35,281 nucleotides of DNA from assembly GCA_025356095.1 (NCBI GenBank), contig JANXUR010000011.1:1-35281 (forward strand). Direction: 5' to 3'. The stretch is from Acidobacteriaceae bacterium (GTDB taxonomy: Bacteria > Acidobacteriota > Terriglobia > Terriglobales > Acidobacteriaceae). Each line of letters begins with the position of its first letter. Position 1 is the stretch's first letter. The notes beneath the pieces are model-generated. The model was not told where the DNA came from. It saw only the letters and a list, made by a program, of their open reading frames with translations, and did not search any database. Below, one piece after another: positions 3,588-7,781 of the stretch. Both the position numbers and the translations under genes were made by a program.

Positions 3588-4151
3588 CTACTTGTGTAGC
3601 AGGAACGCCTTGAGGCTGCTGCCCTTTTCTTCCGTAAAGTCGCCTTCGCCGCGCCACAGCACATTGCCTTGGCGATCCACCAATAAAGCGTACACGTGCG
3701 ATTCATCGGTGATGTGGAGTGCGTCAAGAAAAGGCTTCTGGTCGAGATAAAGCGTGATGGTGCGGTCACGCTGGCCTTGGTCGGGGATGCCGCGCTTCAT
3801 GCCGTTGTTGATAAACCAGCGAGCAAAGCCGTTGAGCCGAGAAATAGTGGGCAATTCGTAATAGTGCAGCTGCGGGTCGAGGTCAGTAAAACGCTTCATC
3901 TGGTGCAGCCATGTATCTACGTTGGACTGCTGCTCGCGCTGAAAGGCGATGAGCACCAGATTGCGCTCACCTGCAAAATCACCCGGCAGGTTGACCGTCT
4001 TACCAGAAAGATTCTCTGACGTAACGCTGGGGAAGCGGGCGGCATCTGCTGCAAACGAAGTCGCTACAAGTAGTGGCAGAAGCGGGATCATCGAGGGCGA
4101 AGCCGCGAACGCGAGCAAAATTCCTTTGAACACTTTGAACACTTTGAACAA
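3588..4151 (-). CDS. Secreted thioredoxin-fold-like protein without CxxC
   Basis: 187-aa exported protein. After a signal peptide (hydrophobic to about residue 35, ending SFAADAA) the sequence LSGKTVNLPGDFAGERNLVLIAFQREQQSNVDTWL resembles the start of thioredoxin/AhpC-like folds, but the two-cysteine active site is missing. The ending (ALLVDRQGNVLWRGEGDFTEEKGSSLKAFL) matches the last strands and helix of that fold. It may be a non-redox binding protein; the family name is uncertain. The TTG start at 4151 is backed by an AGGAGG site 6-7 nt upstream. The first codons are a 9-bp tandem repeat giving FKVFKVFK. Confidence 0.7.
   Translation of the reverse strand: MFKVFKVFKGILLAFAASPSMIPLLPLLVATSFAADAARFPSVTSENLSGKTVNLPGDFAGERNLVLIAFQREQQSNVDTWLHQMKRFTDLDPQLHYYELPTISRLNGFARWFINNGMKRGIPDQGQRDRTITLYLDQKPFLDALHITDESHVYALLVDRQGNVLWRGEGDFTEEKGSSLKAFLLHK
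4124..4150 (-). repeat. 9-bp tandem repeat at the 5' end of the thioredoxin-like gene
   Basis: Three exact copies of CTTTGAACA (plus-strand reading) at 4124, 4133 and 4142. They encode Val/Leu-Phe-Lys triplets at the extreme N-terminus, adding positive charge to the signal peptide in steps of three residues. Confidence 0.85.
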
Positions 4152-4327
4152 GAGGGCCCTCCTAGCCTTGAGGATAGCAGCGCATTTTGACGATGTACGT
4201 TTCTTATTGCTCGGCGGATGGGTTTGCGGGGGGAGAATTTACTCCCAACGAAACCAAAATGGCACGAATTATCGTGACACGAAAAGCGGTAGCTTGCGCG
4301 AAAGCATAATCGGCCCATGAACATTGC

Positions 4328-4358
4328 AAAAAATCGGGGGACGCATCCTGCGTCCCCC
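4328..4358 (-). terminator. Rho-independent terminator after the cytochrome gene
   Basis: Arms GGGGGACGCA (4336-4345) and TGCGTCCCCC (4349-4358) are perfect complements with a 3-nt loop. Read on the minus strand, the stem is followed by a run of six T (4333-4328). It lies 27 nt beyond the final stop of the multiheme cytochrome gene (4385), so it ends that transcript before the thioredoxin-like gene. Confidence 0.85.
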
Positions 4359-4384
4359 AAGGTGAAATTCGCGGAAGAAGTTGC

Positions 4385-6089
4385 CTAGCCTCCGTTGGGG
4401 CCGTTATGGCAGTCGTCGCACGTCACCTGTGTTGCGGTGGCGTAGGTCTTCTTGCCGTTCTCAATGTTAAAGGTGCGGGCAGCCGTGGTGACGGCCAGGA
4501 ACGAGCCGCGGTAGTCGGCACCATGGCAGTAGGCGCAGGCGGTCTTGCCGTTGCCCTGTGCGTAGTCACCGTGGCCGCTTACCCATGATTGTGAGTTGGT
4601 GGACTACACCTGATGCGGGCCACCATTATTGGTGAATGGAACTGGGTTATGGCAAGTGGTGCATTCGGCGATCTTGCCGGTGTGGCCCTGCAGTTTGCGG
4701 CTATAAAGCTGGTCATTGGGCTGGCTGGTGGCGAACTCCGCGTGCGGTGCGCCGTGGCAGGAGGGGCATCCCAAGTTTCCGTGACCGTTGCTCTGGCGGA
4801 ACAACTGGTAGGGAGCCTTGGGCACGTTGGGCTGGGTGGCGAAGCGGGTATCGGTTGCCACGCGCCATAGGCCATTCGTGTCGAAGGTAGTGGTATAGCG
4901 GGTGCTGTTCTCGTGGCACATCTGGCAAGCCGGAACGTCAAGCCAGCCAGCCCGCGTTGGATTGCCCACGGTGGTGAGGTTGCCATGACAGTTCTGGCAC
5001 GTCACATTAGAGGACATGGCACCGCGGTTGCACTGCGTCTTGACGCCGGGGTGACAGAGGTAGCACGAGGTCAGCGGATCGGTCTGGTTGTCTAAGCTGA
5101 TGCCGTTGGCGTAATTGATCTGCGGCCCATGCAGGGTATGCATGTCCGACGTGAGTGAGGCGATGCCGGTGACGCCCGGGGTGCCCAGAGCGTTGGTGCT
5201 GTGGCAGGAGGCGCAGAGGATGGGTGTGCCAGACAGTGCGGTCTGCTGCAGGCTGGACTGATAGACATAGCCTTGGGTCGCCAAAGCGGCGAGGTAGGGC
5301 GCGATGTTTATTTTGTCGTCATGCTTACGCAGGATGTTGTACTTGGCGTCTTTGGCGGGGTCGGGATTGTTCACCCAGCCATTCTTTGGCTTGGCGTCGT
5401 TGTCGCCGCTGCTGGAGGCATGGCAGTTGTGGCAACTGATTTCGTCACGCACCGCCATCACGATGGTGACCGCGGCCAACTGCGTGCCGGTTCAGTCCTT
5501 GGCTACGACGGACACCGTTGGGAAGGGGTTAAACGCCTGTTTGTTGTCGTAAGGAACGGTGGGGATGCCGATGGCTTCCCACCAGCCCGTAGTCTTGTTG
5601 TAGGTGAGCGGATTCGGGGTCAGGCTTTGCACTTTGTTGCCGGTTAGGCCGACGTCTTTGGCGGGGCTGGCATGGAACAGCGGCTGTGCATTAAGACCAG
5701 AAATTGGTCTTGGTAGAACTAATGGTGTTGATGGATGCGGTGGAATCCTTGATTGCCTGATAGGTGATGGTGACGCCAGAGGTGACCAGCTTCGGATCTG
5801 ACACTTTGGTCATCAGTTGGGCGTGAATCGAGTTGTACGGCGGCAGAATGGAGAACACAGAATAGTCCTCGCCATCAATGCAATGCATCCCGAGTTCGGC
5901 CCATGCGGTTAGGGTGTATTGGGTGGTGGTGGCGGTGACAACCGCCGTCTTGTAGGTGGGTGGAACTGCTTTGCTGGTGGTAATGCCTGACCCGGGCGTG
6001 ACCTTGTTGCTGGCCGCAAGCGAGGGATTGTGACCGGCCGTCAGCAAGACGCTGCCGAGAACCAGAACTGCCGCTGCAATGCGATACAT
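4385..6089 (-). pseudogene. Nine-heme c-type cytochrome, broken by a frameshift and two in-frame stops
   Basis: A periplasmic or surface multiheme cytochrome c spread over three open pieces. The ATG at 6089, with a GGGAG site, starts a signal peptide (MYRIAAAVLVLGSVLLTAG). Then comes WAELGMHCIDGEDYSVFSILPPYN, a segment seen ahead of heme domains in related multiheme proteins. Lesion 1 is a frameshift at about 5691-5695 (NFWS then stop; the next frame resumes NAQPLFHASPAKDVG). Lesion 2 is a TGA at 5494-5492 (VVAKD-stop-TGTQLAAV). Lesion 3 is a TAG at 4606-4604 (GGPHQV-stop-STNSQSW). Across the repaired frame there are nine CxxCH sites: CHNCH, CASCH, CYLCH, CQNCH, CQMCH, CPSCH, CTTCH, CAYCH and CDDCH, the last two beyond the TAG. 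The heme motifs are all intact, suggesting recent decay or clustered sequence errors. Confidence 0.85.
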
Positions 6090-6422
6090 GTGAAGCTCCC
6101 TTCCGAAGGGGTTAAACAAAAATGGCCCACCCACATGGGCGAGGCGAAAACGACAGGGGGACGAAGCGACCAACTACATGAATATATGGTGATACAGAAA
6201 GTTGCCCGATCATAGCGCACTTTGGCCGCTTTTCATCCCCTCGTCACGCACACGTGTGACGAACCTCACGCAGGGGACGCAAAGGTAGCAGTAGGAGCCG
6301 TTCGTGGTGGCTCGCATGCTAGTTGGGGCGGGCGGTTATCATACTGTGGCAGGCGTTGCTGCCGGTGTTCGCGGCCTAAACTGGCGGATAGCCCGGGTGA
6401 AGGACGCAGTTCCAAGGAGGGT
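6090..6422. other. Divergent intergenic region between cytochrome and aminotransferase genes
   Basis: 333 bp without a supportable gene; it must hold the promoters of both flanking genes. A stretch near 6175-6190 is AT-rich. An inverted repeat is at 6241-6262. A strong AAGGAGG ribosome-binding site (6413-6419) precedes the aminotransferase ATG. An open frame from 6222 continues into the aminotransferase, but its first 67 residues look non-coding (Cys/Arg-rich, no homology to the family). Confidence 0.6.
6241..6262. promoter_or_regulatory. Inverted repeat in the divergent promoter region (possible operator)
   Basis: Arms TCGTCAC (6241-6247) and GTGACGA (6256-6262) are exact complements with an 8-nt spacer. 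The palindrome CACACGTGTG (6249-6258) overlaps the centre. The position between two divergent genes is typical of a regulator site. No regulator gene is adjacent, so the binding protein is unknown. Confidence 0.35.
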
Positions 6423-7781
6423 ATGCGAGTGCAGATTCATCGGGAACGGCTGGCCGCGCTGATGCTGCGGGAGCAGCAGAGGTTTGAGCAGGAGCATCCC
6501 CGGTCTAAGGCGCTGTTTGAGCGCGGCCAAGACTCGCTGCTGGCTGGTGTGCCCATGAACTGGATGAGGAAGTGGGCTGGCGGCTTTCCGGTGTTTGTAG
6601 CGGAAGCGCATGGGGCGCACTTTACCGATGTGGATGGCCGCGAATACGTAGATTTGTGTCTCGGCGACACGGGCGCAATGACGGGGCACTCGCCAGCGGC
6701 ACCAGTGGAAGCACTGCGCGAGCAATTGGGTCGTGGCATTACTACGATGCTGCCGACGGAAGACGCGTTATGGGTGGGCGAAGATCTGCAGCGGCGATTT
6801 GGCATGAAGTATTGGCAGTTTGCGCTGACGGCGACGGACGCCAACCGATTTTCCCTTCGCCTGGCGCGCGAGATTACGCAGCGGTCGAAGGTGATGGTGT
6901 TTAACTGGTGCTATCACGGCACGGTGGATGAAAGTTTTGCCACACTTGGTGGGGATGGAACCGTGCGGGCGCGGCGCGGCAACATTGGAGCGCCAGTGGA
7001 TCCGGGGATCACGACGCGCGTGGTCGAGTTCAACGACGTGGCCATGCTGGAGCGCGAGCTGGCGCATGGGGACGTAGCTTGCGTGCTGATGGAGCCCGTG
7101 ATGACCAACGTCGGCATCGTGCATCCCGCGCCGGGATTCCACCTGGCGCTGCGCGAACTGACGCGCGCGCACGGCACACTGCTGATTGATGACGAGACGC
7201 ATACGATCTGCGCTGGCCCCGGCGGCTACAAGCAGGTAGAAGGACTTCATCCGGACATTTTTGTACTGGGCAAGCCGATTGGCAGCGGTGTGCCGGGGGC
7301 TGTGTACGGCTTCACTGCGGAGGTTGCGGCACGCTTTATGGCGCGGCAAACGCTGGAGGATTGCGACACGGGCGGCATCGGCGGAACGCTGGCGGGCAAT
7401 GCATTGTCACTGGCGGCGATGCGGGCGACGCTGGGCCACGTACTGACAGACGCCGCGTTTGCCAGGATGATTCCGATGGCTGAGCGCTGGACGGCTGGTG
7501 TGGCCGAGGCGATTGCCGACTTCGACATGCCGTGGCATGTGACGCGACTCGGCTGCCGCGCGGAGTATCTTTTTACGAAGCAGCCGCCGAAAAACGGCAC
7601 TGAGGCGCATGACGCGATGGACTTTGAGCTGGAGCGATTCATGCACCTCTATACGCTGAACCGAGGGGTGCTGCTGACGCCATTCCACAACATGGCGTTG
7701 ATGTGTCCGGTAACCAGCGAGGCGGATGTGGACCGGCATACCGAAGTGTTTCGCGAAGCGTTGCAGGAACTGGTGCGGTAA
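6423..7781 (+). CDS. Class III PLP-dependent aminotransferase (glutamate-1-semialdehyde aminomutase-like)
   Basis: 452-aa PLP enzyme of aminotransferase class III. The PLP lysine is K284 in FVLGKPIGSGVPG, the cofactor-binding acid D257 in LLIDDETHT, and the N-terminal domain has HFTDVDGREYVDLCLGDTGAMTGHSP. True HemL proteins usually carry SGTEA where the phosphate is held; this one has ATDAN (about residues 137-141), so it is probably a transaminase of a related subgroup and not the heme enzyme. Substrate unknown. The start at 6423 is set by AAGGAGG just upstream. It leads a plus-strand group with the lipoprotein 23 nt downstream. Confidence 0.85.
   Translation: MRVQIHRERLAALMLREQQRFEQEHPRSKALFERGQDSLLAGVPMNWMRKWAGGFPVFVAEAHGAHFTDVDGREYVDLCLGDTGAMTGHSPAAPVEALREQLGRGITTMLPTEDALWVGEDLQRRFGMKYWQFALTATDANRFSLRLAREITQRSKVMVFNWCYHGTVDESFATLGGDGTVRARRGNIGAPVDPGITTRVVEFNDVAMLERELAHGDVACVLMEPVMTNVGIVHPAPGFHLALRELTRAHGTLLIDDETHTICAGPGGYKQVEGLHPDIFVLGKPIGSGVPGAVYGFTAEVAARFMARQTLEDCDTGGIGGTLAGNALSLAAMRATLGHVLTDAAFARMIPMAERWTAGVAEAIADFDMPWHVTRLGCRAEYLFTKQPPKNGTEAHDAMDFELERFMHLYTLNRGVLLTPFHNMALMCPVTSEADVDRHTEVFREALQELVR

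Follow-up and report, generated by a model that had tools for sequence, protein, structure and literature searches.

Does a multiheme cytochrome gene whose reading frame is broken in three places record the recent loss of a protein, or clustered errors in the assembly of a gene that is intact? This question is raised by a stretch of 35,281 nucleotides, hereafter the window, which is one whole contig of an Acidobacteriaceae genome (G000; 3.53 Mb in 120 contigs). On its minus strand, from 6089 to 4385, lies a gene for a cytochrome with nine CxxCH motifs, and the original prediction, which described a frameshift near 5692, a TGA at 5494-5492 and a TAG at 4606-4604, is borne out for all three lesions. 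The ATG (6089-6087) is preceded by GGAAGGGAG, the ribosome-binding site said to be intact, and frame 0 ends at the TAA 5693-5691; homologous reading resumes in frame 1 and runs to the stop 4387-4385, interrupted twice, by the TGA and the TAG. All nine CxxCH motifs are preserved, as had been claimed, and all are read in frame 1, with first bases at 5434, 5215, 5065, 4999, 4927, 4768, 4663, 4537 and 4420. The features discussed below are the following.

4385-6089, minus strand: broken nine-heme c-type cytochrome gene, very probably a pseudogene, from the ATG at 6089 to the stop 4387-4385
5694-6089, minus strand: N-terminal piece in frame 0, with a signal-peptide-like start and a conserved GMHC; its counterpart in the relative L046 is predicted to be beta-rich
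5680-5697, minus strand: frame-change region, placed by the alignment of relatives, with the TAA 5693-5691 inside
5492-5494, minus strand: in-frame TGA, where conservation in the alignment is poor
4607-5491, minus strand: heme-binding piece with seven CxxCH, matching Pfam MtrC/MtrF II/IV and Cytochrome_C7 above cut-off
4604-4606, minus strand: in-frame TAG, aligned with a histidine of 81/81 relatives, a candidate distal heme ligand
4388-4603, minus strand: C-terminal piece, which carries the eighth and ninth CxxCH
4334-4360, minus strand: intrinsic-terminator-like stem of 12 pairs, with a T run
6126-6143, minus strand: terminator-like hairpin in the 5′ leader, from a terminator scan

An answer depends on what intact members of the family look like, and intact homologues, which the original prediction had proposed to seek in sister genomes, were found. 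When the G010 protein was compared with 398 genomes of the same family, with at most three candidates scored per genome, 33 genomes gave matches, and 17 of them hold 20 uninterrupted copies that cover most of the query; the remaining matches are broken copies in G000 and G005, and short or weak matches only in 14 genomes. A search of public genomes with an alignment of 19 intact proteins yielded 283 relatives in 292 stretches, of which the best 80 were kept, a choice that favours intact copies, and in each of these 80 named relatives all nine CxxCH lie in a single open frame. Their titles, mostly of metagenome bins, include Acidobacteria, Beta- and Gammaproteobacteria, Sulfuricurvum and other Campylobacterales, together with one Aquificota and one Planctomycetota bin. 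Public genome contigs searched with a single window piece returned no relative. Within G000, the broken gene is the only copy found, both by a DNA search and by a protein search in which three of the seven candidates were scored. Its nearest intact relative shares about 61% protein identity over the core and 67% DNA identity, a distance at which synonymous sites should be saturated, and for the two heme-bearing window pieces identity to L006 is 63% and 53%. The reading frame is thus interrupted relative to intact homologues, and on the alignments (A2 and A3) the window copy is filed as a damaged former member of the nine-heme family. Among the relatives, L082, L085, L100, L113, L114 and L125 have open frames of 954-1099 codons, compared with about 560 in the closest intact relatives. 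An open frame at L025 1429-2056 (G101:C79), with six CxxCH counted by eye, matches only family residues 355-563 and is perhaps a stand-alone short version of the family.

The alignment places each lesion. The change of frame falls between the NFW codons, ending at 5697, and the LF codons, starting at 5680; an NFW-x5-LF pattern is present in 55 of 81 relatives (and, among the 22 distinct ones whose locus numbers do not exceed L065, in 21), and the NFW-to-LF spacing of the window copy is not a multiple of three. Compared with most relatives, the window copy has one extra codon in the aligned stretch around the TAG. The coincidence of the frame change with a stop codon recalls prfB, a known case of frame change at a stop codon, and would be the starting point for reading the gene as functional through recoding, with a programmed frame change at the TAA and read-through of the TGA and TAG. 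Such a reading is scarcely credible: it requires three different recoding events, one of them at an invariant histidine (the TAG) and another at a variable residue (the TGA), in a family whose 80 named members are read in one open frame.

That the gene is intact and only looks broken through clustered errors of sequencing or assembly is a less remote explanation, and the division of the G000 assembly into 120 contigs and the lack of another genome of the same genus among those compared leave room for it. We nevertheless consider it unlikely. The gene contains no homopolymer of five or more nucleotides, its lesions are of differing kinds, and no internal stop occurs in any of the 36 matches to the ABC_tran domain that G000 yields, of which 32 exceed the cut-off. 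Of 20 other window frames scanned, a weak control since they were chosen as open, 14 match a Pfam family, most of them along nearly the full model in one frame. The GC content at third codon positions (0.76) falls within the 0.61-0.78 spanned by seven window genes and favours neither decay nor assembly error.

A further argument comes from substitutions, as a few errors would not yield an excess of missense changes at conserved columns. At columns conserved in at least 95% of 81 distinct intact relatives, the window copy departs from the consensus at 8 of 129. Leave-one-out comparison of the 81 relatives, in which their relatedness is ignored, gives a median of 0.8% departures, and one relative is as high as the window copy, which thus exceeds 80 of 81, as expected under relaxed protein constraint. 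The window copy is changed at two of the 77 columns that never vary among the relatives, and one member is as high. The signal is weaker in a smaller set of 18 family members (L044 left out), in which 138-147 columns are invariant and 7-8 of them are changed in the window copy, against 0-9 in the members, with L043 the highest at nine. One of the listed changes, G to Q, falls in the disturbed stretch at the TAG. Taken at this strength, the erosion of conserved columns is a moderate signal. The branch leading to the window copy is of ordinary length (0.398 from the node common to seven intact relatives, whose own distances are 0.399-0.600), a point against decay that leaves room only for a recent death.

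Simple mutation models turn the missense excess into an age of 0.012-0.031 neutral substitutions per site, that is, 21-53 substitutions, among which 0.6-1.8 stops are expected; the two in-frame stops observed agree with this. The statement that the lineage has ‘just lost’ the protein was therefore roughly right, at about 1-3% neutral change since. The chance that all 27 heme-attachment codons would remain unchanged is 0.44, 0.26 and 0.13 at d of 0.012, 0.02 and 0.03, respectively, so the intact CxxCH motifs are no sign of function.

A second broken copy, in G005 (L036 5250-6134, G005:C19), belongs to a draft assembly of about 180 contigs. Its pieces lie in different frames, its middle is absent (L007 residues 165-371 are unmatched), a further stretch before GQSWVDAH is missing by eye, and its main frame retains three CxxCH. 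Because these lesions differ from those of the window copy, two separate losses appear more likely than one common loss. Of the two outcomes left side by side by the original prediction, loss of the protein is the better supported, by the intact homologues, the eroded residues, the ABC control and the G005 copy, and clustered errors are disfavoured.

With high confidence, then, we read the locus as a young pseudogene of a widespread nine-heme c-type cytochrome family, a single component having been lost and the rest of the chain seemingly kept. In the sequence of events that we propose, the G000 gene would first have lost constraint and would then have gained missense changes at conserved sites, the frame change and the two stops. 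A complete heme-loaded product would no longer be possible from it, because a restart 3′ of the frame change would carry no export signal. One piece might still yield a separate useful protein, for example from the 291-codon stretch 4604-5479, which is open from a TTG in the frame of the CxxCH motifs. This is very improbable: a start inside the protein leaves it without an export signal, c-type heme attachment occurs outside the cytoplasm, and the conserved columns are eroded. The pseudogene reading implies that what disappeared was probably a single interchangeable end component, the putative extracellular-electron-transfer chain being, it seems, otherwise kept.

In the intact proteins, the number of hemes and the set of histidines are strikingly constant, and no specific model in the libraries searched matches the family. 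The 81 relatives share 18 conserved histidine columns, 17 of them at 100% and one at 98.8%, and nine of these histidines follow CxxC and nine do not; the equal numbers of proximal and non-proximal histidines suggest that all nine hemes would be bis-histidine. The window copy retains 17 of the 18, the TAG occupying the other, so that its nine CxxCH stand at the family's conserved places and eight of the nine non-proximal histidines are present. It also keeps all 20 cysteine columns that are at least 97% conserved, two of which lie outside CxxCH, in GMHC and KCxRGAM. Pfam MtrC/MtrF domain II/IV scores 41.3 bits on the main window piece (cut-off 30), which also matches Cytochrome_C7, and 47.6 and 53.1 bits on intact L038 and L044; L006 and L009 gave no match to the Pfam MtrC model at E 0.01, and none of the NCBIfam models reaches its cut-off on two window pieces and two intact relatives. 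L006 alone has no PDB sequence match up to E 0.1. In titles and abstracts of openly licensed papers, no description of the family was found.

The protein model of L046 is weak (pLDDT 65.8, pTM 0.66) and places the N-terminal strands between residues 56 and 208. Its best Foldseek matches are p53-type domains (E 0.0024, with none at or below 0.001), and a second structure comparison lists mostly antibody domains (best Z 6.1, rmsd 3.0 over 99 aligned residues, at about residues 55-215). The matches listed span the beta domain only and include no cytochrome; they are read as a common beta sandwich, with no relationship claimed. The claim of an intact signal peptide agrees with the window copy, whose N-terminus looks like a signal peptide by eye, and the best explanation would have the intact protein exported. 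Its most likely role would be extracytoplasmic electron transfer, probably at the cell surface. The original wording, ‘extracellular or periplasmic’, is plausible to this extent: a crude lipobox-like pattern, doubtful in some cases (L055, L056 and L100), occurs in 32 of the 80 relatives, and none was seen by eye in the window copy.

Known surface cytochromes offer partial parallels. The family resembles MtrC, MtrF and OmcA in the Pfam MtrC/MtrF II/IV matches of the window piece and of intact L038 and L044, and in a beta-rich domain that is predicted to precede the heme domain. It differs from these outer-membrane decahemes, which have ten CxxCH, in having nine (window copy and 80/80 named relatives), in the lack of a Pfam MtrC match in L006 and L009, and in the failure of the NCBIfam OmcA/MtrC model TIGR03507 to match, at E 0.01, any of the sequences scanned with it, namely two intact relatives and two window pieces out of four; nor is any match to the MtrB/PioB family found in G000. 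OcwA of Thermincola, a nonaheme terminal reductase, has in common with the family its nine hemes and the cell-surface role proposed here; the structure of OcwA is solved, with one His/Met heme and two hemes whose distal site is open (PMC6703420); the window family, in contrast, conserves nine non-proximal histidines. When the family profile was run against PDB sequences, none of the 12 matches up to E 1 bore the name OcwA.

The rest of the electron-transfer equipment of G000 appears to be in good order, as the three cytochrome c assembly matches and the seven other multiheme matches are all open. On contig C46 (L148 8160-12028), two genes adjoin on the same strand, which we label ImcH-like and CbcL-like on architecture rather than on comparison with Geobacter sequences, as is also the case for the conduit-like label used below. 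The first encodes a 558-residue protein of NapC/NirT type (PF03264, 46 bits) with six CxxCH and one CxxxCH, and thus has the features that PMC6295460 gives for ImcH homologues, namely NapC/NirT similarity, one CX3CH and 5-9 CX2CH; open relatives of this gene occur in G005 and G010. The product of the second, 711 residues long, combines eleven CxxCH with a cytochrome b561 domain and is similar to the CbcL described in the same paper. On C11 (L147 1093-9032), a 16-CxxCH cytochrome, a 4-CxxCH protein, two NHL-repeat proteins and a peptidyl-prolyl isomerase are accompanied by a 628-residue protein that has no Pfam match and, by eye, could be a beta-barrel, and this cluster resembles an electron conduit. 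Because the ImcH-like and CbcL-like genes are open and a conduit-like cluster is present, G000 seems still equipped for extracellular electron transfer, one putative end component having been lost and not the pathway.

By itself, this is an ordinary gene death, one more pseudogene in a fast-turning class of proteins. Its interest is that the loss of a surface-type multiheme cytochrome can be roughly dated while the inner-membrane electron gates are kept. In Geobacter, amino-acid change is reported to be fastest in outer-surface cytochromes, which are frequently lost and gained, while inner-membrane cytochromes change more slowly, are less often lost and are mostly inherited vertically (PMC12977616). 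With a broken surface-type gene beside open ImcH-like and CbcL-like genes, the G000 case fits this turnover pattern by analogy, in another phylum; the string ‘pseudogen’ does not occur in the main text of that paper. We tentatively suggest, as a possibility held with rather low confidence, that the nine-heme family, with all hemes bis-histidine, is an undescribed and patchy outer-surface module for electron transfer in Acidobacteriota, Proteobacteria, Sulfuricurvum and others, travelling without fixed neighbours, that has been repeatedly lost while ImcH/CbcL-like gates stay, G000 and G005 being independent snapshots.

The surroundings of the broken gene were also compared. The flanking window genes have no match (E 1e-10) in ten homologue regions except one aldehyde dehydrogenase in L039, 31% identical, so the neighbours give no function for the cytochrome. 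Across the 80 named loci, clusters of neighbours other than the cytochrome recur at 13, 10, 9, 5 and 4 loci and comprise, by eye, two-component, spurious antisense, ABC, substrate-binding-type and other proteins. The divergent aminotransferase beside the cytochrome has relatives at nine loci, 67-74% identical; within about 1.5 kb of these, none of seven window frames from the far side of the cytochrome has a match, and an empty site, that is, a locus without the cytochrome, was thus not found. A plasmid collection gave no match, and 4200-6400 has no Rfam match at the gathering threshold. The terminator that had been called intact is the stem at 4360-4334, which has the most pairs of five terminator-like sites in 4150-6300, where 2.1 are expected by shuffling; a promoter scan near the gene gives one weak site, against 0.7 expected. 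The leader hairpin at 6126-6143 sits between this weak promoter-like site and the cytochrome start codon. The nine closest relatives of the aminotransferase frame 6222-7781 align only from residues 67-71, and its true start is probably near 6425 rather than at the listed 6222.
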